A stretch of DNA of 64,000 nucleotides from a virus: IMG/VR virus record IMGVR_UViG_3300007540_000013, positions 1 through 64,000 of that record; one strand, written 5' to 3'. The notes under the pieces were generated by a model that was not told where the DNA came from, did no database searches, and saw only the letters and a list, made by a program, of their open reading frames with translations. The position numbers and the translations under genes were made by a program. This document shows positions 7,237 to 28,173 of this stretch, piece by piece (the stretch's first letter is position 1; each line of letters starts with the position of its first letter).

Positions 7237-8679
7237 ATGAAGGAAAAATTTCGTTATGTTAAAAAAGAAGATCGAAAAAAGATTCTTCTGTTGTGTGATG
7301 ATATCCGAATGCATAGTGGTGTTGCTACTATGGCTAGAGAGATAGTTACAGGTACTGCACATCACTTTAATTGGGTAAACGTAGGAGGAGCTATTAAGCA
7401 CCCAGATCAAGGTAAGTTCTTCGACTTATCTACCGATGTTAATAAGCAGACAGGTATCGATGATGCTGATGTTAAACTATTTGCAGTTTCAGGATACGGA
7501 GACCAGAACCTAATCCGAGATATTATTAAGAGAGAAAAGCCTGACGCTATACTACTCTTCACCGACCCGAGGTATTGGACTTGGATGTTTGATATGGAGA
7601 GAGAAATTAGAAAGACTACTCCTATCTTTTACTTAAACATCTGGGATGACTACCCAACACCTTTATACAATAGAGCGTTCTATGAGAGCTGTGATCTTTT
7701 AATGTCAATTAGCAAGCAGACTAAGAATATTAACGAACTTGTATTAGGTAAAGCTGCTGAAGGAAAGACATTGACGTATGTACCTCACGGTATAAATGAA
7801 TTTCAATTCTATCCTATTCAAGATGATGAGCAATATAAGCAGTTAGAAGTTACTCGAGAGAGTATGTTTGAAGGAAAAGATATTGACTTTGTAGTCTTCT
7901 GGAACTCTAGAAACATTAGACGTAAATCACCAGGCGATGTTATTCTATCTTATAGACACTTTTGTGATTTAATCGGCAAAGAAGCAGCTAAGAAGTGTGC
8001 ATTAGTTATGCATACCCAGCCTGTAGATCAAAACGGTACTGACTTATACGCAGTAAGAGAAGCTATATGCGACCCGGAGTATGTAAATGTATTCTTTTCA
8101 TCTAACAAGCTTAATACTCAACAGATGAACTCTCTTTACAACATCGCAGATATAACGATGTTAATCTCTTCTAATGAAGGATGGGGATTATCTCTAACAG
8201 AAAGTATGATGGCAGGTACTCCTATTATTGCAAACGTAACAGGTGGTATGCAAGACCAGATGAGGTTTGTAGATGGTAACGGAGAGTGGTACACACCTTC
8301 TAAAGAGGTACCTTCCAACCACATGGGCACATATAAGGAGCATGGTAACTGGGCTAAGCCTGTCTTCCCTTCTAACATTTCTCTGGTAGGTTCAGTACCT
8401 ACTCCTTATATACATGACGACAGGTGCGACTTCAGAGAGGTAGCCGAAGCTATTAAATACTGGTATGACCAAGGAGAAGAAGGAAGAGCTAAAGCAGGTC
8501 AGTCAGCAAGAGATTGGGTCACATCAGACGAGTCAGGTATGTCTGCTAGAAGAATGTGTGAGAATGTTATTGAAAGTATGGATACAGCTTTTGATACTTT
8601 CATACCTCGCCCCAGCTATGATCTACAAAAAGTAGAAGATCTAGCACCTAAGTATGTTGAACACCCAATGGTATATTAG
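7237..8679 (+). CDS. Glycosyltransferase family 4-like
   Basis: 480 aa, GT-B type. The N-terminal domain opens with KKILLLCDDIRMHSGVATMAREI, the acceptor-side glycine turn. The C-terminal domain has VFWNSRNIRRKSP and the donor-binding E-x7-E region NEGWGLSLTESMMAGTPIIA near residues 310-330. It probably transfers a nucleotide-activated sugar in the cytoplasm. It is the first glycosyltransferase of the 20-kb cassette and starts right after the RHH-like gene. The sugar cannot be read from sequence. Confidence 0.85.
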   Translation: MKEKFRYVKKEDRKKILLLCDDIRMHSGVATMAREIVTGTAHHFNWVNVGGAIKHPDQGKFFDLSTDVNKQTGIDDADVKLFAVSGYGDQNLIRDIIKREKPDAILLFTDPRYWTWMFDMEREIRKTTPIFYLNIWDDYPTPLYNRAFYESCDLLMSISKQTKNINELVLGKAAEGKTLTYVPHGINEFQFYPIQDDEQYKQLEVTRESMFEGKDIDFVVFWNSRNIRRKSPGDVILSYRHFCDLIGKEAAKKCALVMHTQPVDQNGTDLYAVREAICDPEYVNVFFSSNKLNTQQMNSLYNIADITMLISSNEGWGLSLTESMMAGTPIIANVTGGMQDQMRFVDGNGEWYTPSKEVPSNHMGTYKEHGNWAKPVFPSNISLVGSVPTPYIHDDRCDFREVAEAIKYWYDQGEEGRAKAGQSARDWVTSDESGMSARRMCENVIESMDTAFDTFIPRPSYDLQKVEDLAPKYVEHPMVY

Positions 8680-8681
8680 TA

Positions 8682-10007
8682 ATGAGTAAGATAACAGTTG
8701 CAATTAGCTGTCCGATTGATACGTACAGCGGCTATGGAGCAAGAGCAAGAGACTTTGTAAAAGCTTTAGATAAAAACAAATACAATATAAAGATCCTAGC
8801 GCAGCGCTGGGGCAGTACAAGGTTTGGTTATTTAGAAGATCATCAAGAGCATGAACTTCAATCTATGATCGTACCTCAACTCACAGCACAGCCTGATGTA
8901 TGGATTCAAGTCACAGTACCTAATGAGTTTCAAAAGGTAGGTAAGTTTAATATTGGACTTACAGCTGGTATGGAGACTGATATATGTCCTCCTGAGTGGC
9001 TTGAGGGGTGTAACAGAATGGATTTAATTTTGGTATCTTCTGAGCATGGAAAGAGTTCATTAGCTAACAGTACTTTCAACATGACAGATCAAAAGACTGG
9101 TCAACCGAAAGGTACATTAAAGTTAACAACTCCGATTGAGGTTCTTTTTGAAGGTGTTGATGTAGAGAAGTACTATAAGATTGAAGAGCATAAAGACATA
9201 GCGTTAACTTCCGATTTGGATAGTATAAAAGAATCTTTCTGTTTTCTATTTGTAGGGCACTGGCTACAAGGTAATTTCGGCCACGATAGGAAAAACATAG
9301 GATGGACTATAAAAGCATTCTTAGAAACATTTAAGAATAAAAAGAATCAACCTGCTCTGATATTAAAAACACAATCAGCAAACGCTTCAATCACTGACCG
9401 AGATAATATCTTAGAGAAGATTGAAGCTATAAGAAAGACTGTTAAAGGTAAGTTACCTAGTATATATCTTCTTCATGGAGAACTAAATGACGAAGAGATT
9501 AATGAATTGTATAATCATCCAAAAGTAAAAGCTATGGTAAGCTTAACTAAAGGAGAGGGGTTCGGCAGACCTTTATTAGAATTCTCTACAACGGGTAAAC
9601 CTATAATAGCTTCAGGATGGTCTGGTCACATTGACTTCTTAAGTAAGGAGTTTAATATTCTAGTTAACGGACAACTACACAACGTAGACAGCTCAGCAGC
9701 TCAGAAAGGACTAATATTAAAAGAAGGTAAATGGTTTCAAGCTAACGACGCAGATACTGCACAGGCATTTAAAAGCGTACATAGTAATTATAATAAGTAC
9801 TTAGAACTCGGAAAAAGACAGCGCTATAGAACAAGTACTCAATTCTCGTTAGAGAAGATGGCAGAGAAGTTAAACAATGTACTTAACTCAAACCTACCAA
9901 ACTTCCCTAAGCAAGTTGAGTTAAACATGCCTACCTTAAACTTACCTAAGTTAAATAAAGTAGAGAGCGCACCAGAATTAAAGTTACCAAAATTAAAGAA
10001 GTTATAA
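8682..10007 (+). CDS. Glycosyltransferase family 4-like
   Basis: 441 aa. The GT-B C-terminal domain contains FLFVGHWLQGNFGHDRKN, HPKVKAMVSLTKGEGFGRPLLE (EGFGxPxxE nucleotide-sugar site) and GKPIIASGWSGHIDFL. The last ~50 residues are a low-complexity repeat rich in LNLPKL and may be a protein-binding tail. Two bases separate it from the previous glycosyltransferase. Part of the glycan cassette. Confidence 0.85.
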   Translation: MSKITVAISCPIDTYSGYGARARDFVKALDKNKYNIKILAQRWGSTRFGYLEDHQEHELQSMIVPQLTAQPDVWIQVTVPNEFQKVGKFNIGLTAGMETDICPPEWLEGCNRMDLILVSSEHGKSSLANSTFNMTDQKTGQPKGTLKLTTPIEVLFEGVDVEKYYKIEEHKDIALTSDLDSIKESFCFLFVGHWLQGNFGHDRKNIGWTIKAFLETFKNKKNQPALILKTQSANASITDRDNILEKIEAIRKTVKGKLPSIYLLHGELNDEEINELYNHPKVKAMVSLTKGEGFGRPLLEFSTTGKPIIASGWSGHIDFLSKEFNILVNGQLHNVDSSAAQKGLILKEGKWFQANDADTAQAFKSVHSNYNKYLELGKRQRYRTSTQFSLEKMAEKLNNVLNSNLPNFPKQVELNMPTLNLPKLNKVESAPELKLPKLKKL

Positions 10008-10441
10008 TGGAGCAATTAGTAACATGTAAAAGATGTGGCAGTAATGCTTGCTTAGAGCAACAAGTTAACGAAGAAGTAACCACTCAGTTATGTATGGGCT
10101 GTGGTTTCACAACATCAACTCTTATGACTGAAGGTAGCGAAGTAGTTACGACTGCTTTAGAAACCTCCCCAGAGCTATACAAAGACTTGATGCACAGAGA
10201 TCAAGACGGTAATATTTGGATGCCTTCTACACTTACTCTGCCGAATAAAGGTATGGTATTTGTTGACGGGACTAATACAAAAGACTGGTCATGGGCAGCA
10301 GTAAAAGCTATTCCTTTAGAAGAAGAAGATAAGAAATTATCAGATGATCAAACTCATAAGATGGACATGAAAAACCTTAAGCATTATGCTGAGAAAGATT
10401 TTATGGATGCTTTAGAGCATATTGGATTTTTTGCTATATAA
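10007..10441 (+). CDS. Zinc-ribbon protein, conserved phage hypothetical
   Basis: 144 aa. It begins CKRCGSNAC and then CMGCGFTTS, a four-Cys zinc ribbon. The rest has no recognised domain (GNIWMPSTLTLPNKGMVF; KHYAEKDFMDALEHIG). It overlaps both neighbours by one base. It may bind nucleic acid or act as an adaptor; function unknown. Confidence 0.7.
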   Translation: MEQLVTCKRCGSNACLEQQVNEEVTTQLCMGCGFTTSTLMTEGSEVVTTALETSPELYKDLMHRDQDGNIWMPSTLTLPNKGMVFVDGTNTKDWSWAAVKAIPLEEEDKKLSDDQTHKMDMKNLKHYAEKDFMDALEHIGFFAI

Positions 10442-10596
10442 TGGTTGAGATAGATAAGTTATTACATTCGTTAAAGATCTTAGAAGATAATAAGCATTTA
10501 ACTTTTAAACTTATATACGGACGTTATAATATTGATATCAAGAAATTAACAAAAGAGTTACATGACAATAAGTTACGCAGTAACAGTATGGAATGA
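10441..10596 (+). CDS. Small hypothetical protein
   Basis: 51 aa. Starts on the last base of the preceding stop codon (TAATG) and overlaps the next gene by 35 bases. Charged and helical (KLLHSLKILEDNKHL; DIKKLTKELHDNK). The tight linkage supports it being real, but no homology can be seen. Confidence 0.5.
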   Translation: MVEIDKLLHSLKILEDNKHLTFKLIYGRYNIDIKKLTKELHDNKLRSNSME

Positions 10597-11179
10597 AGTA
10601 GAAGAGGTTAAACGCCTTCTTTCATTCTTACTTAAAAATAAAAGAGAAGAAGACGAAGTTATAGTCCGTATGGACGATTCCGGCCCTAATGAGATTTGGA
10701 AGTACTTAGTATCACTATCGGGTACTCCTGGATACATTTACGCCAAAGGACCTTTCAATAAAGATTTTGCTAGATGGAAAAATAATCTCAACGCTATGTG
10801 CACTAAGGATTACATATTCCAGATCGATGCTGATGAGATGATTAACGGTTATATGATGGACTTACTCCCTCAAGTATTAGCTGCTAATGATGCTGAGTTA
10901 GTAGCAGTACCTAGAATTAATACTGTAGAAGGATTAACCGATGCTCATATACAGAAGTGGGGATGGCAAGTTAATAATGAAGGCTGGGTAAACTTCCCAG
11001 ACTATCAAACTAGAATTTATAAAAACGATCCTAGGATAAGATGGCACGGTACTGTCCACGAAAAGATAATCGGACATAGTACATACGCTGTACTTCCGGC
11101 AGAGAAAGATTGGTGTTTATTACATACTAAAGATATTAAGAGACAAGAAAGACAGAATCAGTTTTACGATACTCTATAA
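10562..11179 (+). CDS. Glycosyltransferase family 2 (WaaE/KdtX-like)
   Basis: 205 aa, GT-A fold. It has YAVTVWNEVEEVKRLL at the N-terminus, YIFQIDADE (metal-binding D-x-D) near residue 80, and the subfamily block PDYQTRIYKNDPRIRW followed by HGTVHE. It is shorter than most GT2 enzymes but complete in its motifs. Part of the glycan cassette. Confidence 0.85.
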   Translation: MTISYAVTVWNEVEEVKRLLSFLLKNKREEDEVIVRMDDSGPNEIWKYLVSLSGTPGYIYAKGPFNKDFARWKNNLNAMCTKDYIFQIDADEMINGYMMDLLPQVLAANDAELVAVPRINTVEGLTDAHIQKWGWQVNNEGWVNFPDYQTRIYKNDPRIRWHGTVHEKIIGHSTYAVLPAEKDWCLLHTKDIKRQERQNQFYDTL

Positions 11180-11181
11180 TT

Positions 11182-11772
11182 ATGCAAACACATTTTTCTT
11201 TCAATCAAAGTAACTACACTAGAGACGTAAATTTTTGCGACTATTACTGGTTTAATAATGCTTTTACAAAAGAAGAGCTGAAAAAGGTAGAAGAGTTGAC
11301 CTCAAGACTTCCTTGGAAGATCGGAACAACTCAATCAGGAGATACAGAATCTCATCGCAAGTCTAAGATCAAATGGTGCCCACAGAATAAAGAATGGTAC
11401 TGGGTATACGAAAGGTTACATAATCTGATTGTAGAGGCAAACGATGCAATGTGGAAGTTTGAATTAACTGATATGCCCGAGATGATTCAATACACGGAGT
11501 ACTATGAAGACGGTGGTCAATATGATTGGCATATGGATTGCGGTATAGAGATGCAGAACAGAAGAAAAATCTCAGTAACAGTTCAACTATCATCACCAGA
11601 CGAATACTCAGGAGGTGATTTAGAATTTAATTTAGGAAACGTAATAGAAGGTCCTCGTAAACAAGGAGCAGCAGTTATCTTTCCTTCTTTTTATTTACAC
11701 AGGGTGACTCCTATTACTAAGGGTACTCGTAAATCTTTTGTAATGTGGGTAGGAGGGGAACCTTATAAATAA
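11182..11772 (+). CDS. 2-oxoglutarate/Fe(II) oxygenase, prolyl-hydroxylase-like
   Basis: 196 aa. It has the double-stranded beta-helix metal triad: H-x-D in YDWHMDCG (~116/118) and the distal His in FPSFYLHRVTP (~173), with the 2OG-binding basic residue in GTRKSFVMW. This matches the PKHD/P4H hydroxylase family. The cofactor chemistry is well established for the family. The substrate (protein, sugar or nucleotide) is unknown; within this cassette a glycan or glycoprotein target is plausible. Confidence 0.85.
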   Translation: MQTHFSFNQSNYTRDVNFCDYYWFNNAFTKEELKKVEELTSRLPWKIGTTQSGDTESHRKSKIKWCPQNKEWYWVYERLHNLIVEANDAMWKFELTDMPEMIQYTEYYEDGGQYDWHMDCGIEMQNRRKISVTVQLSSPDEYSGGDLEFNLGNVIEGPRKQGAAVIFPSFYLHRVTPITKGTRKSFVMWVGGEPYK

Positions 11773-11779
11773 ATTAAAA

Positions 11780-12604
11780 ATGAAAAAATACAAAGTAGGA
11801 ATTATAGGAAATGGGTTTGTAGGAGAGAGTCAAGCTTTTGCTTTTAGTCCAACAGCAGATATTCGAATTTACGATATTGATCCATTAAAAGCTACTCACA
11901 CATTAGAAGAAACTCAAGATAGCGACTTTACATTCATCTGCGTTCCTACTCCGATGAGAAAGGACGGTAGTCAAGATATAACTTATATTGAAGCAGTATT
12001 CGATAAAGCAGTTGAAGGTACGGTTTATATAATTAAATCAACCATACTCCCAGGTACAACACAACAATTACAGGAGAAATATCCTAATCTATCTATAGTA
12101 TTTAGCCCAGAGTTTTTAACAGAAAGGACTGCTAAATTAGATATGCTTACTCAAGCACGTATTATCTTTGGAGGTGATTTAGAGCTCACTAAAGAAGTAG
12201 AGAAGTTATTTGCTCAACGATTTATGAACAGGCATTTCATACACACTGACACAACGACTGCAGAGCTAATAAAGTATATGAATAATACATTCTTTGCTAC
12301 GAAAGTATCTATCATGAATGAATTTAAGAGATTAGCTGATGCATTAGATGCTGATTGGGATAAAGCTTTATATGGATTTGCTGCTGATCATAGAATAGGA
12401 GACAGTCACCTACACGTCCCAGGTCCAGATGGAAGAATGGGATACGGAGGTACTTGCTTTCCAAAAGACGTAAATGCAATAGTAACTCTAGGAAGAGAGC
12501 TAGGAGTACCTTTGAATGCAATTGAAGGTGGATGGCAGACCAACTTAGAGGTACGTCCGGAAAGAGATTGGGAACAAGATAAAGGCCGAGCAGTAAGTAA
12601 GTGA
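11780..12604 (+). CDS. ugd: UDP-glucose/GDP-mannose 6-dehydrogenase family
   Basis: 274 aa. The NAD-binding site GIIGNGFVGE (residues ~8-17), the block STILPGTT, the helix ELIKYMNNTFFATKVSIMNE, and the catalytic Cys in GGTCFPKD (~226) are all present. These enzymes oxidise UDP-glucose (or a relative) twice to the uronic acid. At 274 aa it lacks most of the C-terminal UDP-binding domain of ~390-430-aa homologues, so activity or partner needs are uncertain. It would supply an acidic sugar donor to the cassette. Confidence 0.85.
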   Translation: MKKYKVGIIGNGFVGESQAFAFSPTADIRIYDIDPLKATHTLEETQDSDFTFICVPTPMRKDGSQDITYIEAVFDKAVEGTVYIIKSTILPGTTQQLQEKYPNLSIVFSPEFLTERTAKLDMLTQARIIFGGDLELTKEVEKLFAQRFMNRHFIHTDTTTAELIKYMNNTFFATKVSIMNEFKRLADALDADWDKALYGFAADHRIGDSHLHVPGPDGRMGYGGTCFPKDVNAIVTLGRELGVPLNAIEGGWQTNLEVRPERDWEQDKGRAVSK

Positions 12605-13614
12605 TCACTATAAAGTTACATAATTGGAATAAAGGAAGAAACGAACCGACGTTTCGTCCATTTTTATTCGCTCAAAAGCTATTCAATGAAGTAGGCATAC
12701 AGTTTACCGAAGGAGCTAATTACGATTATATCTTTGTAGGGATGCATGATTTCATAGATAGAAAGGTACCTTTAGATGAAAGTATTGCCAAAGGAGTTAA
12801 GGCAATTAAACCTTTTGGTGATAAATGTTTTCTGTTTGACGGTTCTGATTCAACATCTTTATTAGGAGCCTATGAAGTATTATCTAATAGCTCAGCACGA
12901 TACTTATTTAAAAATCAATTATTAAAATCGAGAGAGCTTTACAGAGAGCCTTCTCCATTCAATAAAGTATTCTTTACAGGTGATAGTGATTTTGAAGTAG
13001 GATATGATATTTCTGATAAGGATTGGAACCGAATAAAGTTATCCGGGTACAACCTAGGGTATTTACTTCCAGACTATAGAGTACATTATAAAGAAGCTGA
13101 AGATAAACCTTTTGATGTATGTGCAATATATCAAGGATACCATGACGAGAACTACGACCACGGCTTTAGAAACGATACCTATTACACAGAGCATAGAGCA
13201 GGAGCTTGGAATATTTTAAACGAACTAGAGCATTGGGATGTACTCACAGAAAAATTACCTAAGCAAGAGTACATAGATAAGATGAGAAAATCTAAAGTAG
13301 CTCTATCACCTTTCGGTATGGGCGAAGTATGTTTTAGAGATTTCGAATTAATGCAGTTTGGAACTGCAATGGTTAAACCAAGTATGTCACACCTTAAGAC
13401 TATTCCTAATCCATATATAGAAGGAAAGACTTATTTCCCGACAGCACATACATGGGATGATCTAACCGAAGTACTTTCTGAAGTAATAGACGATCCGGTT
13501 GCACAGAATGAAGTTGTACATAATTTTCGAAAAGTATTCTTAGAAGAGTATACTTTAGAGAAATTTGTACTATATTGGTATAACATAATTAAAGAACAAC
13601 CAGAAGTAGTATGA
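12601..13614 (+). CDS. Exostosin-like glycosyltransferase
   Basis: 337 aa. It starts with GTG in a GTGA overlap with the preceding stop; no nearby in-frame ATG exists. The C-terminal part FDVCAIYQGY..., KMRKSKVALSPFGMGEVCFRDFELMQFGTAMVKP resembles exostosin/GT47-type transferases. Probably uses a nucleotide sugar made by neighbouring enzymes. The acceptor is unknown. Confidence 0.7.
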   Translation: MITIKLHNWNKGRNEPTFRPFLFAQKLFNEVGIQFTEGANYDYIFVGMHDFIDRKVPLDESIAKGVKAIKPFGDKCFLFDGSDSTSLLGAYEVLSNSSARYLFKNQLLKSRELYREPSPFNKVFFTGDSDFEVGYDISDKDWNRIKLSGYNLGYLLPDYRVHYKEAEDKPFDVCAIYQGYHDENYDHGFRNDTYYTEHRAGAWNILNELEHWDVLTEKLPKQEYIDKMRKSKVALSPFGMGEVCFRDFELMQFGTAMVKPSMSHLKTIPNPYIEGKTYFPTAHTWDDLTEVLSEVIDDPVAQNEVVHNFRKVFLEEYTLEKFVLYWYNIIKEQPEVV

Positions 13615-14339
13615 AAGTAGCATTATGCTTACACGGGTTAGTAGGAAGTACTAAAGGTAAGAATGGCGACCTTTTAGGAGGATCGGATGAAGTATTGGAA
13701 CACTCTTTCAGACATAACCAAGAGAATATATTAGGATTAAATGTAGATGTATTCATTCATTCGTGGAGTACTGAATTAAAGGAAGATATCTTAGAAAAGT
13801 ATAATCCTAAGAGATACATTATAGAACCTCAGATTCAATTTAAAGTACCAGATTACATTAAATCTGATCAACACCGCGCCTTCGCGCATCTAAGCAGGTG
13901 GTATAGTTATAGGGAATCAGTAAAATTAAAAGCTGAATATGAACTACAGACCGGAGAAGTGTACGATTATATTCTTGTACAACGATTCGATCTCTGCTGG
14001 AATATTAAACCAGACTTTGCTAATTTTGATTCTAATTTGTTCTATGTAGGACATGCTGGATTAGATAATAAACGAGAATGGTCTGATCGATGGTTTATTT
14101 CAAATTCAACTTCTGCTGATAAGTTCGCAACAATGTATGATAAATTAGCAGAGTATATGGGACCTGGAGGAGAGTTCCCAAGCAGCAAACAGTACGCAGG
14201 TATTTCAAGTCACTTCTTGACTAAGTTTCATGCTAAAAAACTAGGACTTAAAGAAGAGTTTATATATAATTTTGGAGGGTATGGAAGCAAACCGGATGAT
14301 TATAATGAAGTAAGAAGAATGTATTATGGGGACAAGTAA
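13611..14339 (+). CDS. Putative glycosyltransferase, uncharacterised
   Basis: 242 aa. Begins KVALCLHGLVG and contains NVDVFIHSWSTE, VYDYILVQRFDLCW and FSSKQYAGISSHF-like segments. This pattern occurs in polysaccharide-associated transferases of phages and large viruses. Overlaps the previous gene by four bases (ATGA) and the next by fourteen. The family assignment rests on pattern and context only. Confidence 0.6.
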   Translation: MKVALCLHGLVGSTKGKNGDLLGGSDEVLEHSFRHNQENILGLNVDVFIHSWSTELKEDILEKYNPKRYIIEPQIQFKVPDYIKSDQHRAFAHLSRWYSYRESVKLKAEYELQTGEVYDYILVQRFDLCWNIKPDFANFDSNLFYVGHAGLDNKREWSDRWFISNSTSADKFATMYDKLAEYMGPGGEFPSSKQYAGISSHFLTKFHAKKLGLKEEFIYNFGGYGSKPDDYNEVRRMYYGDK

Positions 14340-14679
14340 CTATAACGAAGAAAGACCTTGGGGAACTTTCGAAAATTTATTGGATACAGATTACTGTAAA
14401 GTAAAAGAGATTGTAATTAAACCAGGACAAGCACCTAGTTATCAATATCATTTCAAACGTTCTGAAGTATGGGTAGTAACAAAAGGGACTGGAGAGTTGA
14501 GATTGAACGATGTAACTACTCAAGTTAGTACTGGAAGCATCTTACACATACCAGTTCAGGCAAAACATCAGATTAAGAACACAGGTACAGAAGATCTATA
14601 TTTTATCGAAGTACAACTTGGTGAGTACTTTGGTGAAGATGATATTGTACGATTAGAAGATAACTATGGCAGAGTATAA
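14326..14679 (+). CDS. Cupin, mannose-6-phosphate isomerase type II-like
   Basis: 117 aa. A single cupin barrel: RPWGTFENL at the N-terminus, YQYHFKRSEVWVVTKGTGEL (metal His/Glu), IHIP-type LHIPVQAKHQIKNTG and EVQLGEYFGEDDIVRLEDNYGR. It matches the stand-alone C-terminal domain of the PMI/GMP enzymes that interconvert fructose-6-P and mannose-6-P. It sits directly before a nucleotidyltransferase, the usual partner activity. Confidence 0.85.
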   Translation: MGTSNYNEERPWGTFENLLDTDYCKVKEIVIKPGQAPSYQYHFKRSEVWVVTKGTGELRLNDVTTQVSTGSILHIPVQAKHQIKNTGTEDLYFIEVQLGEYFGEDDIVRLEDNYGRV

Positions 14680-18856: not shown

Positions 18857-19589
18857 GAATATTATATTTTTAATTAACATCGTACACGACGATAGGAGTA
18901 AGAATCAAGGGTACGAATGGTCTATAAAGAGCTGGCGTAAGTATGCTGAGAAGTATGGGCATGAGGTCTTTGTACTAGACAAAACTTTATTCGAAGTATC
19001 TTATATGAAACCACAATGGTATAAGATGTACATATTAGACCTCTTAGAAGCGAATGAAGTTGAGTATGATCAGGTATTGTATGTAGATGCAGACACTATA
19101 ATACATCCTAACGCTCCAGATATATTTGACTATACTGAACATAAATTCTGTGCTGTACGAAATTACGGAGATATGGATTGGGTATTAAGGAGTATGGAAA
19201 ATTATTCTAAGTACATCTTCAACAATTTTAACTTTCCTTTTTATAAGTACTTTAACTCTGGAGTGATGGTATTCAATAAAAAACATAAAGAGTTATTTAA
19301 AAGTATTCAAAATTTCTATCATGCTAATAAAGACTCTATTATAAAAATGCAAAGCACATTTGGAGTAGGTAACGACCAGCCAGTCCTAAACTACTTTGTC
19401 AATAGAGATATTCCGGATGACTATAAAGTACTTCCTTATGAATGGAACATGCAAGACATGACAAGACTAGAAGTATTAACCGAAGACTATCTACATACTA
19501 GATACGGATACATTAGTCATTATAACGCTGGCGTTAAGCCAACTCCTGGGTACTGGATAGAGAAGACATACAGACATTTATACTCATGA
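18849..19589 (+). CDS. Glycosyltransferase with DAD motif (GT8-like)
   Basis: 246 aa. GT-A type: YDQVLYVDADTIIHPNAPDIF supplies the D-x-D metal site, followed by KYFNSGVMVFNKKH and GNDQPVLNYF, typical of GT8-like transferases. It overlaps its paralogue by eight bases. Probably cytoplasmic; donor and acceptor unknown. Confidence 0.75.
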   Translation: MSKNIIFLINIVHDDRSKNQGYEWSIKSWRKYAEKYGHEVFVLDKTLFEVSYMKPQWYKMYILDLLEANEVEYDQVLYVDADTIIHPNAPDIFDYTEHKFCAVRNYGDMDWVLRSMENYSKYIFNNFNFPFYKYFNSGVMVFNKKHKELFKSIQNFYHANKDSIIKMQSTFGVGNDQPVLNYFVNRDIPDDYKVLPYEWNMQDMTRLEVLTEDYLHTRYGYISHYNAGVKPTPGYWIEKTYRHLYS

Positions 19590-21073
19590 TAGTATCTCAC
19601 AAGCATAAGTTTATCTTTATTAAGACAAGGAAGACTGCCGGCTCAAGCCTTCAGGTTGCTCTAGCAGAACATTGCGGACCTGATGATATTATCACAGGCC
19701 AGTACAGATTAGGTGTTGACGATAACTCTCATTCAGCAGGACTAAATATGGATAAATTCTGCAGTACTCATCCGCATCCTGAATTAGCACAAGTAAAGTC
19801 ATTTTTAGGAGAAGAAGTTTGGAATAGTTACTTTAAGTTTGCTTTTGTTAGAAATCCTTTTGATATTGCAGTATCAAGGTATCATTGGGACTTAAAAGGA
19901 AAGATGGGCGTACAGGAGACATCTGTAGAAGGTTTCCAAGATTGGGTAAAGAGTGGTAAGTTATTCGATAAAGATAGAGCACATTTATATACTTCTACTA
20001 ACGGGTATGTTGATTTAGATTTTATAGGTTACTACGAAAACTTAGAAGAAGATTTAGATTACATATGTAACGCTATAGGGCTAGATACTCTAAGTCTACC
20101 AAAGCTTAAAAGCGGATACCGCGATAACTCCTCGTATAGTAATTTCTATAACGAAGATACTAAGCAACGCGTAATGCAATTCTATGCAGAAGATTTTAGA
20201 CTGTTTAGGTATAACTTCGAGAATAAAAATATATGTAAGCGTAGAAATATTCTAAGTGTAGGAGATAATTTTATTGAGAATGATAACATAAGTACTCCTT
20301 GTATAATTTATAGAGATAACGAATACAAGATGTACTTTAGTAACCATGAAGGTAGTGTAATAAAACTCGCCACTAGCTCAGCTTTAGAAGGACCTTGGCA
20401 GCAAAAAGGCGCTGTACTTTCCTTACAAGATACTCCTTGTGATACTCATATTGCAAGTCCTGAGGTAGTTGTAAAAGGAGGTAAGTACGTAATGTATTAC
20501 CACGGTGATCAAGATGACACTCAAGGAACTTTTATAGCTGAAAGCTCTAACGGTGTGGACTTTGTTAATACTACATCTAGACCGGTATGTAAATTTTACT
20601 TAAGAGTCTTTGAGTATAAGGGCGTGGAGTACGGTATTGCAAAAGATGGTAATAACGGAGCTATACTTTACAACATAACAGATAATTTTACTCCAATAGC
20701 AAATATACTTCCTAACGCTAGACATTGTCACGCATTAGTTAAAAAGGATAAGCTATATTTAACATATTCAACGATTGGTGATAGTCCGGAACATATTAGA
20801 CTCTGTACATTAGATCTAGGAGATACTTTTGAAGATTGGGAAGTAATCTCAGATGAAGCTTTAATCCTTCCGACTTATAAGCACGAAGGAGGTAACTTAC
20901 CTATCGTAAAAACACAACCAGGTTCATCGACTCGAAGATACGGACGACCAGTAGCTGAGTTAAGAGATCCTTTTATGTTTGAAGTTAACGGAAAAGTTCA
21001 TATATTATATGTTACAAGAGGTGAGAGTAGTATTGCTTACGCTCGCTGTATAAATTATTTTAATGAAGACTAA
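19586..21073 (+). CDS. Sulfotransferase / five-bladed beta-propeller fusion
   Basis: 495 aa. The N-terminal ~215 residues begin KFIFIKTRKTAGSSL, the PAPS 5'-phosphosulfate loop, and have FKFAFVRNPFDIAVSRYHW (3'-phosphate motif). After residue ~230 there are repeated blade elements (TPCIIYRDNEYKMYFS; SPEVVVKGGKYVMYYHG; HCHALVKKDKLYLTYS; LRDPFMFEVNGKVHILYV) like GH43/GH32-type propellers. A sulfotransferase attached to a sugar-binding or hydrolytic propeller is unusual. It suggests sulfation of a glycan recognised by the propeller (inference). Confidence 0.75.
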   Translation: MIVSHKHKFIFIKTRKTAGSSLQVALAEHCGPDDIITGQYRLGVDDNSHSAGLNMDKFCSTHPHPELAQVKSFLGEEVWNSYFKFAFVRNPFDIAVSRYHWDLKGKMGVQETSVEGFQDWVKSGKLFDKDRAHLYTSTNGYVDLDFIGYYENLEEDLDYICNAIGLDTLSLPKLKSGYRDNSSYSNFYNEDTKQRVMQFYAEDFRLFRYNFENKNICKRRNILSVGDNFIENDNISTPCIIYRDNEYKMYFSNHEGSVIKLATSSALEGPWQQKGAVLSLQDTPCDTHIASPEVVVKGGKYVMYYHGDQDDTQGTFIAESSNGVDFVNTTSRPVCKFYLRVFEYKGVEYGIAKDGNNGAILYNITDNFTPIANILPNARHCHALVKKDKLYLTYSTIGDSPEHIRLCTLDLGDTFEDWEVISDEALILPTYKHEGGNLPIVKTQPGSSTRRYGRPVAELRDPFMFEVNGKVHILYVTRGESSIAYARCINYFNED

Positions 21074-22010
21074 ATTTGCAATAGGTTGCTTAGCGCAATG
21101 GTATGAGATTGAGATATTATCTGAGTACATTGATACGTTAATCGCAGCAATAGATAGATACGGAAAAGAGAATGTACATATTGATTTAACTTTATGTACC
21201 AATCAAGAGTTAGAGCGCATTGAAGAAGAGAGTAAGATGTTAGACATCTTACATGACTTCTACATTCAGACAAATAAACTAAAAGGATATAACATACATA
21301 CAGTCATAACAGATAAGTTAATCACGATAGCAGATTACAGACGGACTTTTAACGAAACTTATTGCGATGATGTAGATGTACTGATGTGGGGTGAGACTGA
21401 TCTATTAGTCCCTCAACAAGCTTTTGAAGTACTAGACGGTCTTCATAAAGTAACTCCGACTCCTAAGTATGTCGCTACTTTTGGTATATGTAAGATGTGG
21501 GACGATACCTGGAAACCTTTAGAGCATCCAGACTTTACAGATAAACCTTTTATTGAGAATGATTATGATAATTGGTGGTCTTTAAAGTATACCATGACCG
21601 AAAAAGAGATGAACGCTATCAACTCTAAAACTACACAACCAGAAGTATTAACTTTACCTCGACATAAGTTTAACGGATGTGGTTTAGTAATATCTTCAGA
21701 GGTGATTAGGGCAGGAGTGAACATACCTAAGTCAGTATTCTTCGTACATGAAGATACTGCTTTTATGATAATGACTCAAAAGGTGTTAGGTAATATTCCA
21801 CAGTATGTTATACGTAATATATTAAACGTACACAATAGAAATCATCCTAGTAAGAGGATGTATATAAAAGGTGAAAGCGGCGACACTCTAAATCAAAAAA
21901 GACGAAGTAACGACTGGTATGTAAAAGCGAACAAGTACTCAGAAGAAAATTGTTACAATCTTTTTAATCCTAATTACAAATCAAAGACATGGAAGGACGT
22001 ATGGAGATAG
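21063..22010 (+). CDS. Putative glycosyltransferase (GT-A-like)
   Basis: 315 aa. Begins TKFAIGCLAQWYEIEILSEY; DVDVLMWGETDLLVPQQAFEVL may be the metal-binding segment, followed by NGCGLVISSEV and FVHEDTAFMIM. This order resembles other GT-A enzymes but no family signature is complete. Assigned largely from context in the cassette. Confidence 0.55.
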   Translation: MKTKFAIGCLAQWYEIEILSEYIDTLIAAIDRYGKENVHIDLTLCTNQELERIEEESKMLDILHDFYIQTNKLKGYNIHTVITDKLITIADYRRTFNETYCDDVDVLMWGETDLLVPQQAFEVLDGLHKVTPTPKYVATFGICKMWDDTWKPLEHPDFTDKPFIENDYDNWWSLKYTMTEKEMNAINSKTTQPEVLTLPRHKFNGCGLVISSEVIRAGVNIPKSVFFVHEDTAFMIMTQKVLGNIPQYVIRNILNVHNRNHPSKRMYIKGESGDTLNQKRRSNDWYVKANKYSEENCYNLFNPNYKSKTWKDVWR

Positions 22011-22900
22011 CATTCTTTACAGAGATGGGCTTTAATGGAAAAATTCCTCGTACTCATTCTAATATGAGAACAGAATTTGCTTGGATGGTAGCTTTAGATG
22101 CAGATCATTATAATCTTAATCAGACTCCTACTAAACAGTATGACTTAGGTATAGCTATAAACTCCAAGAATAATCCTGATCATGTTAACGTAGCTCAATA
22201 TAAGACTAAATGTAAGCAAGTAGCAGTAATGCAAGAAGGTCCGTTTTGGTACTTCCAGGACTACCCGCTAGCTAACCAGGTACACTATTTTAATAATCTT
22301 ACCTCAGCAGATATAGTATTAGTTCATAACGAACTTGATGCAAAATATTTTAAAGGATTAACAAATCATCCTGATGTACGGGTGCTTAGGTCCCTAATGA
22401 TTGAAGATCCGATTAAGGAAATAACTTCTATAGAGCAAAGAACCGGAGTGATGATAGGAGGTAATTTCAAGAGCTGGTACGGAGGTTTTGATTCTTTTAT
22501 GCTAGCAAAAAGCGTTACTGATGAAATATATTCTCCACAGATGGGTCGTCGTCAAGAAGGAGAAGAGCAATTAGGTATTCAACAACTACCTTATTTAGAA
22601 TGGAATCAATGGATATCAGAATTAAGTAAGAGGAAGATTGGTATTCATATGATGAGAACTCATGCAGCAGGCACCTTTGCTATGAACTGTGCGTACTTAG
22701 GTATACCTTGTATAGGTTACGAAGGACTAGACACTCAGAGAATATTACATCCCAACCTGACAGTGAAAGACGGAGACTTAGATACAGCAAGAAAATTAAT
22801 TAAGAAGTTGTATAACGACGAAGAATTTCTTATATTATGTAGTCAACAAGCAAGAGAGATGTATTCAAAGTATTATCACGAAAGTAAATTCACCTTATGA
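22001..22900 (+). CDS. Putative glycosyltransferase (GT-B-like)
   Basis: 299 aa from the ATG at 22001; an in-frame ATG at 21989 is four codons upstream. Starts MEIAFFTEMGFNGKIPR, has VAVMQEGPFWYFQDY, then a C-terminal half with KIGIHMMRTHAAGTFAMNCAYLGIPCIGYEG like the donor half of GT-B enzymes. Overlaps the previous gene by ten bases and the next by four. Confidence 0.6.
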   Translation: MEIAFFTEMGFNGKIPRTHSNMRTEFAWMVALDADHYNLNQTPTKQYDLGIAINSKNNPDHVNVAQYKTKCKQVAVMQEGPFWYFQDYPLANQVHYFNNLTSADIVLVHNELDAKYFKGLTNHPDVRVLRSLMIEDPIKEITSIEQRTGVMIGGNFKSWYGGFDSFMLAKSVTDEIYSPQMGRRQEGEEQLGIQQLPYLEWNQWISELSKRKIGIHMMRTHAAGTFAMNCAYLGIPCIGYEGLDTQRILHPNLTVKDGDLDTARKLIKKLYNDEEFLILCSQQAREMYSKYYHESKFTL

Positions 22901-23661
22901 AAATACAGTTTATCGTAGTAGGATGGCATATGAATCAGCCGTCCCTAATAGAAGGATTAGCTACTCTTCAAAAAAACAACCCCAAAACAGTAGATGTGTT
23001 TTGGTCTTGTCATCGTGAACCTACTCAAGAAATTCAAGAAAAATTTAAATGTAAACTTTTTCACAATGGCGGAGAAGAGTGCGGAGCTTACGATCAAGCA
23101 ATCGATTATTTAAATTTATCGGAAGATACTGTATGTTTTTTCTTGCATGATGATATTATAATAAAAGATTGGAATTTTATTAATGTCTGCATTGATTTAC
23201 TAAGCAAAGGAGCGAAAGTAGTAGGGAACTGTTTAGATTACCCTGATAATTTTGATCCGTTTAAGTCCTACGATACAGGTATTACAGAAGAGTTTGATGG
23301 AAAACAGTTTATAGATTACGTTAAACCGGAAAATCGCCACCTGTTCACTGAGCAGCTTTTTATTAAGAAAGTACGTCCATCTTTTATTTGTATGACATAT
23401 CAAAGTGTTGCACAAATAGGCGGATTTGAACCTAGAAAAGAGGCATTAATTCCCCCAACAGTTACTGATGGCAGAGTTCATTACCGTGGTTCAAAAGGAC
23501 TAGGAAAGTACGGTAATCTTTTCCCTGCTCTAGTATGCTATAAAATGAACAAGGTACTAGGCTCAAATAATATAGCCTATTTAAGTAATAGATATCTAGA
23601 TTCTCCCTTTGTATACGAACTAGGAAGAGGTGAATTCGATCCTAATAATCCTATGACATGA
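22897..23661 (+). CDS. Glycosyltransferase family 2-like
   Basis: 254 aa. It starts KIQFIVVGWHM, has EECGAYDQAIDYL and then CFFLHDDIIIKDW, where HDD takes the D-x-D position. QIGGFEPR follows, as in many GT2 enzymes. ATGA start overlap. Part of the cassette. Confidence 0.7.
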   Translation: MKIQFIVVGWHMNQPSLIEGLATLQKNNPKTVDVFWSCHREPTQEIQEKFKCKLFHNGGEECGAYDQAIDYLNLSEDTVCFFLHDDIIIKDWNFINVCIDLLSKGAKVVGNCLDYPDNFDPFKSYDTGITEEFDGKQFIDYVKPENRHLFTEQLFIKKVRPSFICMTYQSVAQIGGFEPRKEALIPPTVTDGRVHYRGSKGLGKYGNLFPALVCYKMNKVLGSNNIAYLSNRYLDSPFVYELGRGEFDPNNPMT

Positions 23662-23867
23662 AAAATTTAAAATCGACAGTAAACGATCAAGGTAAAAAAG
23701 TTACTCAAATTATACACTTTGTAGGTGGTTCAAAGCGTACCTATCATGGGATATTGCCGGAAAGTATAAAGCAAGGTCAATTCACTAAGATGAAATGTGC
23801 TGATGGTACTATGCTTATGATAAATGATGAGAATGTTTTATGTATTGAAATTTTTAAAGAAGATTAA
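23658..23867 (+). CDS. Small hypothetical protein
   Basis: 69 aa, likely a small beta-rich fold (VTQIIHFVGGSKRTYHGIL; MKCADGTMLMINDENVLCIEIF). It sits inside the glycan cassette with a four-base overlap upstream. No family recognised. Confidence 0.6.
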   Translation: MKNLKSTVNDQGKKVTQIIHFVGGSKRTYHGILPESIKQGQFTKMKCADGTMLMINDENVLCIEIFKED

Positions 23868-23868
23868 A

Positions 23869-25026
23869 ATGGAACTAAGAAAAGAAATGCTACCTGTATT
23901 AAGACCTGTAGGGGGTAAGGAAGAAATTGCAGCACTAACCGAAGTTATTGAAAGTGGTTGGTGGGGAAAAGGTCCAAAAGTAGCAGAATTTGAAAAAAAG
24001 TTTGCGGAACTAGTCGGAGCTAAGTACGCAATAGCAGTCACCAGTAACTCTCACGGTCAAGACCTGGTAATGAAAGCCTTAGATATCCGTGACGGAGACG
24101 TCATCAACCCATCTATTTCCTTTATGGCAACTGCAATGATCCCGTTGTGGCAGCCTAACATAACAACCAATGTAGTGGATGTAGACCCGTATACAATGTG
24201 TATTGATCCAGAGGATGTAAAGAGAGCTTTAACTCCGAATACTAAAGCTGTTATTGCTGTTAACCAAGCAGGGGTACCTGCTCCGATCGATAAAATTAGA
24301 GAGTTTTATGATGGGCTAATTATTGAAGATTGCGCCCACAGCTGTTACACCCCCGGTGCTGGAATGCAAGGAGATATTGCAATATGGTCTTTTCAAGCAG
24401 TTAAGACTATGCCTTGTGGAGACGGCGGTATGATCACACTAAACGACAAGGCACTCTACAACAAATTAAAAGAAATGACATGGTTTGGAGTATCCTCAAC
24501 ATATTCTCGTGTAGCAAAGAACGACAAGGACTCTGTTTCTGGAAAACCTGGTTACACCTGGGACTATGAAGTTGATAAGATAGGTTACAAATGTTACATG
24601 ATTGATATCAATGCTGCAATCTGTCTTGAACAAATGAAGAAGCTAGATACAATCTTGGATCATCGCCGTCTTATCCAGAAAGAATATAACTTGAAACTGC
24701 ATTCAATAGTAGAACGTCCTCCCCATACTGAGACAGTACAGTATTACTGCGCAAAAGTACCTATTGGAGATAGAGATGATCTAATCGACTACTTGGCAGA
24801 TAAGAATATACATACTTCTGTACATTTTAAACCTCTACACACATACGAAATTATTAAAAAACACTTAACACATCCGGATAGAGAACTTCCAGTAGCGGAT
24901 CTGGAATGGCAAAAATTAATATCCTTACCGGTACATCCCGGAATGAGTCAAGAAGATATCGATTACGTTGTGTACTGGGTGAATATGTACTTCGATACAA
25001 AGTACGGAATTGCAAAATATATTTGA
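23869..25026 (+). CDS. DegT/DnrJ/EryC1 sugar aminotransferase
   Basis: 385 aa from the ATG at 23869, which lies just after the previous stop; an upstream in-frame ATG would overlap that gene. PLP enzyme: VTSNSHGQDLVMKAL binds cofactor, LIIEDCAHSC holds the Asp/His pair, and WSFQAVKTMPCGDGGMI has the Schiff-base Lys (~177). These enzymes transfer an amino group to 3- or 4-keto nucleotide sugars or related compounds. The epimerase next door could supply the substrate. Confidence 0.9.
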   Translation: MELRKEMLPVLRPVGGKEEIAALTEVIESGWWGKGPKVAEFEKKFAELVGAKYAIAVTSNSHGQDLVMKALDIRDGDVINPSISFMATAMIPLWQPNITTNVVDVDPYTMCIDPEDVKRALTPNTKAVIAVNQAGVPAPIDKIREFYDGLIIEDCAHSCYTPGAGMQGDIAIWSFQAVKTMPCGDGGMITLNDKALYNKLKEMTWFGVSSTYSRVAKNDKDSVSGKPGYTWDYEVDKIGYKCYMIDINAAICLEQMKKLDTILDHRRLIQKEYNLKLHSIVERPPHTETVQYYCAKVPIGDRDDLIDYLADKNIHTSVHFKPLHTYEIIKKHLTHPDRELPVADLEWQKLISLPVHPGMSQEDIDYVVYWVNMYFDTKYGIAKYI

Positions 25027-25031
25027 TATAC

Positions 25032-25943
25032 ATGAAAGCATTAGTTACAGGCGGAGCAGGATTCATAGGCTCTAATATTGTAGATAAGTTATTAGAGAGG
25101 GGATATGAAGTTTCGATTATAGATGATCTATCTACAGGGAAGAGATCGAATTTAAATCCTAAAGCAAATCATTACGAAAAATCTTTACATAACACCTCAG
25201 TAGAAGAACTGACAGAGATATTAAAAGATCACGAAGTTGTATATCATACAGCAGCACTAGCACGAGTTCAGCCAAGTATTAAAGATCCGGTAAGGTATAA
25301 TGAAGCAAACGTAACTGCTATTGTACATCTTTTAACTGCTTGTGTCGAAGCAAAAGTTAAAAGAGTAGTGTATAGTGCTTCAAGCTCTGCTTACGGGAAT
25401 GCAAAAGTATTTCCTACCCCGGAGGATGCTCCAACAGATTCGTTATCACCGTACGGTCTACAAAAGTATATTGGAGAGTTATATTGTCGAATGTATAGTA
25501 AGGTTTACGATATTGATACTGTCTGTCTTCGCTACTTCAACATATACGGACCACGAATGAACTTCGAAGGAGCTTATAAGACAGTTATCGGAGTATTTGC
25601 AGAGCAAAAGAAACAAAGTCTCCCTTTAACTATAACGAATGACGGAACACAGAGGAGAGATTTTACTTACGTGAAAGATGTTGTGCGGGCTAATATATTA
25701 GCAGGAGAAAGTAAAGAGAAGTTTGTAGGTGAAGTTTTTAATATAGGAAATGGCGGCAACGTTAGCATCAACGAAGTAGCAGATATGATAGGAGGTACTA
25801 AGTCGTATGGCGAACAACGCTTAGAGCCTTTCGAAACCTTAGCAGACAATAGCAAAGCAAGAAGAGTACTTGGATGGACACCAGAGGGGGACTTAAGTGA
25901 CTTTATCGAGAATGATCTATGGAACTTAGACGAACTGAAATGA
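25032..25943 (+). CDS. NAD-dependent nucleotide-sugar epimerase (extended SDR)
   Basis: 303 aa from the ATG at 25032. Longer in-frame starts lack support, since the Rossmann motif TGGAGFIGSNI begins five residues after this Met. SASSSAYG and YGLQK (catalytic Tyr ~141, Lys ~145) complete the active site; RYFNIYGPR is family-typical. Probably 4-epimerises or dehydrates a UDP-sugar. It follows the aminotransferase by five bases. Confidence 0.9.
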   Translation: MKALVTGGAGFIGSNIVDKLLERGYEVSIIDDLSTGKRSNLNPKANHYEKSLHNTSVEELTEILKDHEVVYHTAALARVQPSIKDPVRYNEANVTAIVHLLTACVEAKVKRVVYSASSSAYGNAKVFPTPEDAPTDSLSPYGLQKYIGELYCRMYSKVYDIDTVCLRYFNIYGPRMNFEGAYKTVIGVFAEQKKQSLPLTITNDGTQRRDFTYVKDVVRANILAGESKEKFVGEVFNIGNGGNVSINEVADMIGGTKSYGEQRLEPFETLADNSKARRVLGWTPEGDLSDFIENDLWNLDELK

Positions 25944-27097
25944 AAATAACATTCGTTATTCCTTCAAGGAACAATTTAGAATTCTTACAACTAGCTTACC
26001 GCTCAATTCGCAGGTTAGGTACTACACATGAGGTATTAGTATTGAATGATGCAAGTACAGATGGTACCGCCGAATGGATAGAGGCTCAAGAGGATGAGGA
26101 TCTAATTGTATATCACAATCCAGGACCAGAGCGTATTGGTATTGTAGGAATGTTCGATAAAGGTATTGAGATGGCTCGTACTGATATCATTATGGCATTC
26201 CATGCTGATATGGTAGTGTGTAAGGATTTTGATACAAATATACTCAAACATCTTCAAAGAGGTAAGGTAGTATCAGCTACAAGAGTTGAGCCACCACTAC
26301 ATCCAGATGGTCCAGAGAAGCTATTGAGAAACTTTGGTATTGAAGTTGATGAGTTTAAGATGGATGTTTGGTTAGACCAAGCAGAAGGATTAAAAGAAGA
26401 TAAAGTTACTGAAGGTACCTTTGCACCATGGTGTATGTATAGAGAAGACTTCCTAGCCATTGGAGGTCATGATGAATTGTTTGCCCCTCAGTCTAAAGAA
26501 GATTCTGATTTGTTTAATAGGTTTGTGTTAAATGGTTACCAACTTATACAAAGCTGGGATGCGTTGGTATATCACTTTACGTCTAGAGGTTCACGATTCA
26601 ATAAGCATGCAGGTGGAGCAGCAGGACAGAACTCTCAAGAGTGGTTGTATACTACAACTAAGAATATGAGAAATTTTATTCGTAAGTGGGGTACAGTTGT
26701 ACTTCATGATGCATTAATGAAACCGATAGTACCTCCTAAGTATGATATAGCTTTTAGAGTAACTAATCCAAGTCTAGATTTGTTACATGCTTTAGAGCCT
26801 TGGTGTAGTTATATTCATGTAGGCGCTGATAATGAAGAGCTGGTTGAGAAGTACATTCAACAAGAGCAACCTAACACTATAATTGATCTACAGAATAGAA
26901 TAAATGTTTACGATGGTGACAGCGAGATTACTATTTATATAAACGGAAACACGTTTACACAAGAAGATTATCAAGTTATTCAACAGTTGAGCGAGATTAT
27001 TCAACATAGTGGTTCAGTCGGAAAGTTTGCTTTAGGTAACTTGGAAATCTCTATTCAAGAGATGAATGAATATCAAAATGATTTAATCCACATTTAA
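25940..27097 (+). CDS. Glycosyltransferase family 2
   Basis: 385 aa from the ATG at 25940 (ATGA overlap with the epimerase); an upstream in-frame ATG would add seven residues. KITFVIPSRNNLEFLQ at the start, VLVLNDASTDGTAEW, MAFHADMVVCKDF as metal site, and FAPQSKEDSDLFNRF downstream. The last ~100 residues form a separate unknown domain (VNDG-like INVYDGDSEITIYING). It is the last glycosyltransferase of the cassette. Confidence 0.85.
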   Translation: MKITFVIPSRNNLEFLQLAYRSIRRLGTTHEVLVLNDASTDGTAEWIEAQEDEDLIVYHNPGPERIGIVGMFDKGIEMARTDIIMAFHADMVVCKDFDTNILKHLQRGKVVSATRVEPPLHPDGPEKLLRNFGIEVDEFKMDVWLDQAEGLKEDKVTEGTFAPWCMYREDFLAIGGHDELFAPQSKEDSDLFNRFVLNGYQLIQSWDALVYHFTSRGSRFNKHAGGAAGQNSQEWLYTTTKNMRNFIRKWGTVVLHDALMKPIVPPKYDIAFRVTNPSLDLLHALEPWCSYIHVGADNEELVEKYIQQEQPNTIIDLQNRINVYDGDSEITIYINGNTFTQEDYQVIQQLSEIIQHSGSVGKFALGNLEISIQEMNEYQNDLIHI

Positions 27098-27608: not shown

Positions 27609-27614
27609 AAGGTT

Positions 27615-28168: not shown

Positions 28169-28173
28169 GTTAT

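Follow-up and report, generated by a model that had tools for sequence, protein, structure and literature searches.

Islands of glycosyltransferase (GT) and lipopolysaccharide (LPS) genes are already known in phages. In the accessible text of the sources, cyanophage P-SSM2 is credited with 24 LPS/glycosyltransferase-type genes (PMC2984593), and pelagimyophages are described as possessing a hypervariable, GT-rich island within the structural region that includes the tail fibers (PMC7029224). As far as the accessible text goes, the chloroviruses make a conserved core glycan in the cytoplasm, to which further sugars are added that vary among viruses (PMC7826918), and the Megavirinae have variable glycogene clusters of six to 33 genes, bordered in several members by the same pair of genes (PMC10117803). 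Here we analyze a glycan biosynthesis and transfer cassette of ∼20 kb, located at positions 7237 to 27097 of a 64,000-base stretch of viral DNA (the window) that constitutes bases 1 to 64000 of the IMG/VR virus record IMGVR_UViG_3300007540_000013 (99,005 bases in total). The record comes from a tailed phage: it holds genes for TerL, portal, major head and baseplate proteins, the baseplate gene at 46.9 to 48.7 kb and the other three past 64 kb. A sequence-only reading of the window had proposed about 20 mostly overlapping genes for this region; 22 main genes are indeed present on the plus strand, most of which overlap or are separated by a few bases only, along with two short open reading frames (ORFs; 10441 to 10596 and 23658 to 23867).

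The cassette resembles the cyanophage and pelagimyophage islands (P-SSM2, S-SSM7 and the pelagimyophage host recognition cluster): all are large, hypervariable series of GT and nucleotide-sugar genes carried by tailed phages. Unlike those islands, its variable part is bracketed by a fixed left and right frame that includes a zinc-ribbon-like gene, between a PD-(D/E)XK nuclease gene and an HNH gene, and unlike the pelagimyophage type, which is flanked by VrlC and gp14 within the structural region, it lies elsewhere. With the systems by which chloroviruses and Megavirinae glycosylate their virions, the cassette shares virus-encoded, clustered nucleotide-sugar enzymes and transferases and a core-and-decoration or variable-cluster design; those, however, are eukaryotic viruses with experimentally shown glycans. 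Glycosylation of the mycobacteriophage capsid and tail tube (Freeman 2023, as cited in PMC12619734) is alike in that a phage virion is decorated with glycans. No published description of a fixed, lineage-wide frame with a zinc-ribbon gene, of quantified serotype-like exchange or of the lack of membrane machinery was found in the literature searched, which covered few subscription papers. The sequence-only reading had also considered a pathway of this size in one phage rare, a view that is not supported, given that the zinc-ribbon gene of the frame has 570 relatives in viral contigs and that similar islands of the LPS type have been described in cyanophages and pelagimyophages.

A fixed frame around a hypervariable middle

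Relatives were fetched with the first gene of the cassette, the GT4-type transferase GT4a (best 80 of 95), and with the last, the GT2-type transferase GT2z (all 68, some of them merely generic transferases). By hand, 57 loci were chosen, namely the window, Flavobacterium phage immuto, Microcystis phage Mel-JY01 and 54 IMG/VR contigs; apparent duplicates and contigs ending before the second anchor were left out. Both anchors were present in 53 of the 57 loci (those dropped were contig L018, in which GT2z is cut by the contig end, contigs L044 and L054, and Mel-JY01), and removal of the near-duplicates G064 and G034 yielded 51 cassettes; the rule is loose, and one remaining pair, G040 and L092, has identical middle families. 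By definition, each cassette has GT2z and either GT4a or the adjacent GT4b, and the presence of the next two frame genes, c03 and c04, is not by construction. ORFs were predicted with a simple caller and grouped into families by single linkage at 35% identity and 70% cover.

Cassette length ranges from 7.9 to 22.0 kb (median, 12.9), with 8 to 26 ORFs per cassette (median, 15). The 51 cassettes encompass 247 gene families, a number that overstates functional diversity because the family rule splits distant homologs; 152 families were seen once, and accumulation is unsaturated, with 3.1 new families per added cassette. Five families are present in at least 90% of the cassettes: GT4a (48), GT4b (51), the zinc-ribbon-like protein c03 (49) and the GT2 transferase c04 (46), in this order at the left, and GT2z (51) at the right, where it is often accompanied by the transferase c18 (37/51) and a short-chain dehydrogenase/reductase (SDR; 29/51).

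The middle content of the cassettes is uncoupled from the left frame and from the neighboring genes. Across the 51 cassettes, the Spearman correlation between middle content and 5′ frame identity is −0.11. Flanks were compared on up to four plus-strand ORFs (≥60 amino acids) per side. Among the 94 pairs for which such data exist and whose 5′ frames are ≥80% identical, the median Jaccard index is 0.04 for the middle and 1.0 for both the upstream and the downstream flank; the downstream value exceeds that of the middle in 98.9% of these pairs, and the upstream value in 91.5%. Conversely, a module can be common to cassettes with divergent frames. For example, the window and contig G020 both have the genes c09 to c15, c17 and c18, with frame transferases only 52 to 72% identical. 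In G020 (L154), GT4a and GT4b are each called as two ORFs, which were left so and reflect broken genes or sequencing errors.

Despite this turnover, purifying selection acts on the shared middle genes, and the cassette is maintained. In four close cassette pairs, the ratio of nonsynonymous to synonymous substitution rates (dN/dS; Nei-Gojobori method) was below 0.4 in all 32 shared middle-gene comparisons, the highest being ∼0.38, and the frame genes of these pairs behave similarly; many comparisons of the window with G020 and G046 were saturated at synonymous sites and were excluded. The proposal of the sequence-only reading, a phage glycan cassette fitting virion glycosylation or alteration of the host surface, is supported, and the cassette is kept by selection. 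That the material is non-functional or weakly selected “stuffer DNA” at a recombination hotspot, a possibility raised for cyanophage LPS clusters (in the accessible text of PMC3037559) and in keeping with the very high turnover of the middle, is disfavored and highly improbable, considering these dN/dS values, the catalytic motifs present in the window genes inspected and the retention of the locus in 69 of 70 nuclease-anchored loci.

The genomic position of the cassette is conserved as well. Both the cultured phage immuto and the IMG/VR relatives have it at the same place, behind the PD-(D/E)XK nuclease gene. When retrieval was anchored on the nuclease (best 80 of 216 loci), GT4a was found 251 to 347 bases downstream in all but one of the 70 loci with at least 600 bases of room, the single exception having 694 bases left downstream. 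Only 18 of the 80 nuclease sequences were new relative to the earlier loci; 14 of these loci show GT4a, three end at the nuclease, and one is the sole miss. The two ends of the frame mostly occur together: GT2z was detected in 33 of 37 GT4a contigs at an E value of ≤0.001 (28 at ≤1e-40 and five weak), the other four ending within 7.3 kb of GT4a, and GT4a in 38 of 42 GT2z contigs, with 37 strong matches; upstream of GT2z, the other five contigs run out after 0.4 to 9.3 kb. The sequence-only reading had suggested a search of related phages and a check for foreign composition. With the cassette at the same place in relatives and a uniform GC content (0.34 to 0.39 over 6 to 28 kb, spanning the cassette), it withstands both, and a chance insertion or an assembly chimera is ruled out.

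Among cultured phages, immuto (MW353175; 160 kb) possesses a 13-gene, 10.8-kb cassette behind the nuclease gene, with an HNH gene further on. Its GT4a, GT4b and GT2z are 69%, 62% and 65% identical to those of the window, respectively, and the two middles have few genes in common (Jaccard index, 0.08). Mel-JY01, the one cyanobacterial phage matched, carries the nuclease, GT4 homologs and a shorter run of glycan genes that lacks c03; its GT4b is 46% identical to that of the window, and its GT2z match is weak (25%). In the phage collection searched, GT4b, GT2z and c03 had no match to any Synechococcus, Prochlorococcus or Pelagibacter phage record, and c03 was found in four immuto records only. 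A distant relative of GT4a (27% identical) is encoded by Rhodothermus phage RM378 (NC_004735, positions 9150 to 10433), where its annotation names a glycosyltransferase as well as a similarity to DNA polymerase I.

Membrane machinery and the target of the glycan

The interpretation that we favor, by a modest margin over even, is that the cassette is a polymorphic phage glycan locus, comparable to a serotype locus devoid of membrane machinery, whose glycan is assembled on a virion protein within the cytosol. In this scenario, one or more virion proteins would receive a constant core oligosaccharide from the frame transferases, the zinc-ribbon protein would serve for acceptor recognition or as a scaffold, and the middle genes would make and attach the outer sugars, which in this phage probably bear uronate, amino, O-methyl and sulfate groups. 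Outer sugars would then be swapped when conserved frames recombine, altering the particle surface, which could aid escape from adsorption-blocking, particle-binding defenses or predation.

Assembly in the cytosol is favored because polytopic membrane proteins are lacking. Under a simple rule for hydrophobic segments (Kyte-Doolittle scale, 19 residues, mean of >1.6), 798 of the 816 proteins of the 51 cassettes have none, 16 have one and two have two, so that no polytopic flippase or polymerase, with more than two segments, was identified among them; the same rule assigns nine segments to Wzx and six to Wzy of Escherichia coli K-12. The run on 53 cassettes agrees (any hydrophobic segment in 18 of 844 proteins). 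The initiating sugar-phosphate transferase families PF02397 and PF00953 were each found in none of 14 long contigs, the window record included; these contigs may be fragments, and with 14 genomes, the controls were positive in 9 and 12, respectively. Thus, the cassettes share with bacterial O-antigen and capsule loci of the Wzx/Wzy type the conserved ends, the exchangeable middle, the sugar-activating enzymes and the many transferases, but unlike those loci, they encode neither a flippase- or polymerase-like protein nor, in the 14 contigs, an initiating transferase family. The cassette enzymes appear to be soluble, and this favors an acceptor in the cytosol, for which a virion protein would be the simplest candidate. 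The closest functional parallels, those of the chloroviruses and Megavirinae, both decorate the virion and by analogy count for the same target. The cassette products probably decorate the particle.

One of the two P-SSM2 clusters (L195, 3603 to 15675) was tested under the same rule. It comprises 15 genes, none of which encodes a hydrophobic segment, and is alike in this respect to the cassettes analyzed here. The interpretation of this cluster as an LPS locus may therefore need to be reconsidered.

The zinc-ribbon-like protein c03 (144 residues) of the frame has one invariant and three near-invariant cysteines (43 sequences), the pattern from which “zinc ribbon” is read. A fold search of the PDB produced nothing at a Z score of ≥5; the best match had a Z score of 3.7 (root mean square deviation [rmsd], 3.7; 62 residues aligned). 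The fold comparisons otherwise gave one uncharacterized viral protein. When c03 was searched alone in viral contigs, GT4b accompanied it in all of the best 80 of 570 relatives, and GT4a and GT2 in 79 each; in 50 of these 80 loci, the c03 sequence was new relative to the earlier loci. Because c03 loci nearly always carry GT4b, GT4a and GT2, c03 can serve as a marker of the frame. Its role in acceptor recognition is a guess.

A Pfam scan of 145 of the 169 eligible middle families outside the window identified epimerases/dehydratases (12 families), Methyltransf_24 (11), GT2 (7), DegT (6), NeuB (4), hexapeptide transferases (4) and others. Of 56 contigs, seven have NeuB, and six of those seven also encode CTP_transf_3 (G044, G050, G058, G069, G073 and G077; the G050 and G077 contigs are near-identical, and the G077 match has one stop codon); neither was found in the window record. 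The joint presence of these two families points to the synthesis of cytidine monophosphate (CMP)-activated nonulosonic acids, which some relatives probably make.

Several observations weigh against a virion target or against free exchange. The cassette is located away from the structural genes, and the 2-oxoglutarate (2OG) oxygenase and the sulfotransferase would also suit other chemistry. The host could supply a flippase, a polymerase and a ligase, so that their lack in the phage is compatible with a host-surface target. Exchange, moreover, is read from gene content, and the two ends are not equally free in it, since the identity of GT2z partly tracks the content of the middle (Spearman correlation, 0.49).

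Among the alternatives, alteration of the host surface fares best, although we regard it as unlikely. The phage would rebuild the O-antigen or capsule via the host lipid carrier, flippase and ligase and in this way exclude superinfection or free its progeny from receptor-bearing debris. This is the published interpretation of similar islands in P-SSM2 and in pelagimyophages, as given in the accessible parts of PMC2984593 and PMC7029224. It is also in line with the cellular context of three of the middle genes. Homologs of c10 were found in 18 bacterial and archaeal contigs (Prochlorococcus, Pelagibacteraceae, archaeal and others), 10 of which encode a relative of c12 nearby, seven a relative of c09 and 11 either one; judged by these neighborhoods, c09, c10 and c12 are a cellular sugar-activation module. 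However, no polytopic protein was found in the 51 cassettes and no initiating sugar-phosphate transferase family in the 14 long contigs, and a constant transferase frame would fit a constant, phage-made acceptor better than varied host O-antigens.

Still less probable is DNA hypermodification, in which the glycans would be placed on modified phage bases and block restriction enzymes and CRISPR (clustered regularly interspaced short palindromic repeats) systems. Viruses are reported to encode transferases that attach diverse glycans to DNA (Pyle 2024, as cited in the accessible text of PMC12619734). The annotation of immuto (L005, 1 to 5838) includes DpdA and genes of the queuosine pathway, a likely case of 7-deazaguanine modification of DNA, and thymidylate-synthase-type genes were detected in 6 of the 14 long contigs. 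Their carriage is patchy, whereas the frame is constant, and no such gene was found in the 99-kb record of the window, which is possibly incomplete (TET/JBP oxygenases were not searched). The 7-deazaguanine family PF01702 was found in none of the 14 long contigs, in a search that was uninformative, as the DpdA-annotated immuto was negative too. To our knowledge, a set of enzymes that includes sulfotransferase, methyltransferase, aminotransferase and NeuB types exceeds those of the known DNA glycosylation loci, which also counts against modified bases as the target.

Returning to the virion-glycan locus, a broader generalization is possible, although we place it somewhat short of probable: that tailed phages have true serotype loci, in the form of a cytosolic system marked by the GT4a-GT4b-zinc-ribbon-GT2 frame, which supplies the virion with a constant core and exchanges outer-sugar modules between phages, sialic-acid-like (nonulosonic) ones included, by recombination at the frame, and that many phage “LPS islands” read as host-surface genes are such virion-coat loci. 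If the glycan is on the particle, a widespread phage lineage would vary its own coat as bacteria vary their O-antigens, and a phage-made sugar layer would enter phage-host recognition, grazing and clearance. The zinc-ribbon gene offers a testable hallmark for finding such loci, and immuto offers a cultured phage for tests. Survey practice would be affected, too: according to the accessible text of PMC11360552, a “conservative” catalogue of ocean auxiliary metabolic genes excluded contigs with LPS-island genes, such as glycosyltransferases and nucleotide-sugar epimerases.

Gene content of the cassette and its surroundings

The genes of the cassette and its conserved neighbors are compiled in Table 1.

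Table 1. Features of the cassette and its flanks in the window. Bit scores are given against the family cutoff; pLDDT, predicted local distance difference test score of the AlphaFold model; aa, amino acids.
Feature	Position	Strand	Part	Evidence
PD-(D/E)XK nuclease	6079..7017	+	conserved left neighbor	Pfam PDDEXK_1, E 6.6e-21
59-aa ORF, function unassigned	7057..7236	+	between nuclease and cassette	family in 48/57 loci; no Pfam match at E 5
c01, GT4a glycosyltransferase	7237..8679	+	frame	Glycos_transf_1, 41.5 vs 26.4 bits
c02, GT4b glycosyltransferase	8682..10007	+	frame	Glycos_transf_1, 26.9 vs 26.4 bits
c03, zinc-ribbon-like protein	10007..10441	+	frame	pLDDT 94
c04, GT2 glycosyltransferase	10562..11179	+	frame	Glycos_transf_2, 38.3 vs 23.3 bits
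c05, 2OG-Fe(II) oxygenase	11182..11772	+	variable middle	2OG-FeII_Oxy_3, E 7.6e-15
c06, compact Ugd-like UDP-sugar dehydrogenase	11780..12604	+	variable middle	UDPG_MGDP_dh, E 3.3e-23; no C-terminal-domain family matched
c07, probable glycosyltransferase	12601..13614	+	variable middle	Glyco_trans_1_2, 24.6 vs 25 bits (just under cutoff)
c08, function unassigned	13611..14339	+	variable middle	phrog_13607 (unknown function), E 5e-14
c09, mannose-6-phosphate-isomerase-type cupin	14326..14679	+	variable middle	MannoseP_isomer, E 1.2e-28
c10, probable nucleotidyltransferase-kinase fusion (weak matches)	14666..16225	+	variable middle	Arch_glmU, 49.4 vs 292 bits; APH, 15 vs 23.2 bits
c11, TylF-type methyltransferase	16215..16757	+	variable middle	TylF, E 4e-15
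c12, protein linked to c09/c10	16754..17725	+		no Pfam match at E 5
c13, HAD-type phosphatase (marginal)	17709..18068	+	variable middle	HAD_PNKP, 27.5 vs 27.6 bits; DUF2608, 24.4 vs 22.6 bits
c14, probable glycosyltransferase	18065..18856	+	variable middle	clusters with c15 (single linkage, ≥35% identity, ≥70% cover); no Pfam match of its own
c15, GT8 glycosyltransferase	18849..19589	+	variable middle	Glyco_transf_8, 38.8 vs 24.3 bits
c16, sulfotransferase	19586..21073	+	variable middle	Sulfotransfer_2, 57.2 vs 22 bits; C-terminal region possibly GH43-like (Glyco_hydro_43, 22.6 vs 32.2 bits, below cutoff)
c17, putative GT-A-type transferase (motif only)	21063..22010	+	variable middle	family 22, 12/51 cassettes; no Pfam match
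c18, GT4-type glycosyltransferase	21989..22900	+	semi-conserved	GT-B fold, pLDDT 93; BshA, Z 22.7, rmsd 3.0, 284 residues aligned
c19, putative GT-A-type transferase (motif only)	22897..23661	+	variable middle	family 23, 10/51 cassettes; profile search of PDB without useful match
c20, DegT/DnrJ/EryC1/StrS sugar aminotransferase	23824..25026	+		Pfam, E 1.8e-80; no NCBIfam cutoff met
c21, SDR nucleotide-sugar epimerase or dehydratase	25032..25943	+	semi-conserved	Epimerase, E 5.2e-59; GDP_Man_Dehyd, E 2.1e-49
c22, GT2z terminal glycosyltransferase	25919..27097	+	frame	Glycos_transf_2, 57.8 vs 23.3 bits
Right neighbors, the last an HNH endonuclease	27258..29195	+		families 11, 9, 12 and 10 in 28, 33, 25 and 29 of 57 loci; HNH phrog, E 1.6e-07

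Most of the functions named in the sequence-only reading were confirmed by Pfam matches over the cutoff, namely those of Ugd, the SDR enzyme (epimerase or dehydratase), DegT, the cupin, the methyltransferase, the sulfotransferase and the 2OG oxygenase. Its count of at least nine glycosyltransferases is fair but not fully proven: eight are identified by tool results (c01, c02, c04, c07, c14, c15, c18 and c22), and c17 and c19 by motifs only. For c10, weak matches of both the nucleotidyltransferase and the kinase kind agree with the proposed label, but all are below their cutoffs, and the haloacid dehalogenase (HAD) phosphatase label of c13 is marginal, just under the cutoff for one family and over it for DUF2608. 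The GatZ-like aldolase proposed for c12 is unsupported; some of its residues may resemble GatZ motifs.

Catalytic motifs, judged by eye, are present in the sequences of c04, c05, c06 (NAD-binding and catalytic-cysteine motifs), c13, c15, c16, c20 and c21. In NCBIfam, c21, like c20, misses all of the cutoffs shown, and c06 narrowly misses that of its best family (173.4 versus 189.8). The reaction of c21 cannot be told, because both epimerase and 4,6-dehydratase Pfam families match. The start of this gene in the ORF list is 24906, which would overlap c20 by 121 bases.

Between 6 and 12 kb, promoter-like sites show no excess (15 found versus 19.7 expected), and five terminator-like sites were found versus 2.5 expected, one of them (7149 to 7163) immediately ahead of the cassette. 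At 34 to 38 kb of the window, ORFs of at least 80 amino acids are sparse and GC skew is high (0.25 to 0.33). Finally, positions 82 to 1011 encode a 309-amino-acid phage protein with weak tail-fiber similarity and a C-terminal Por_Secre_tail domain (a secretion-system C-terminal sorting domain; Pfam E value, 5.2e-12), which we take to be linked to type IX secretion and the Bacteroidota.

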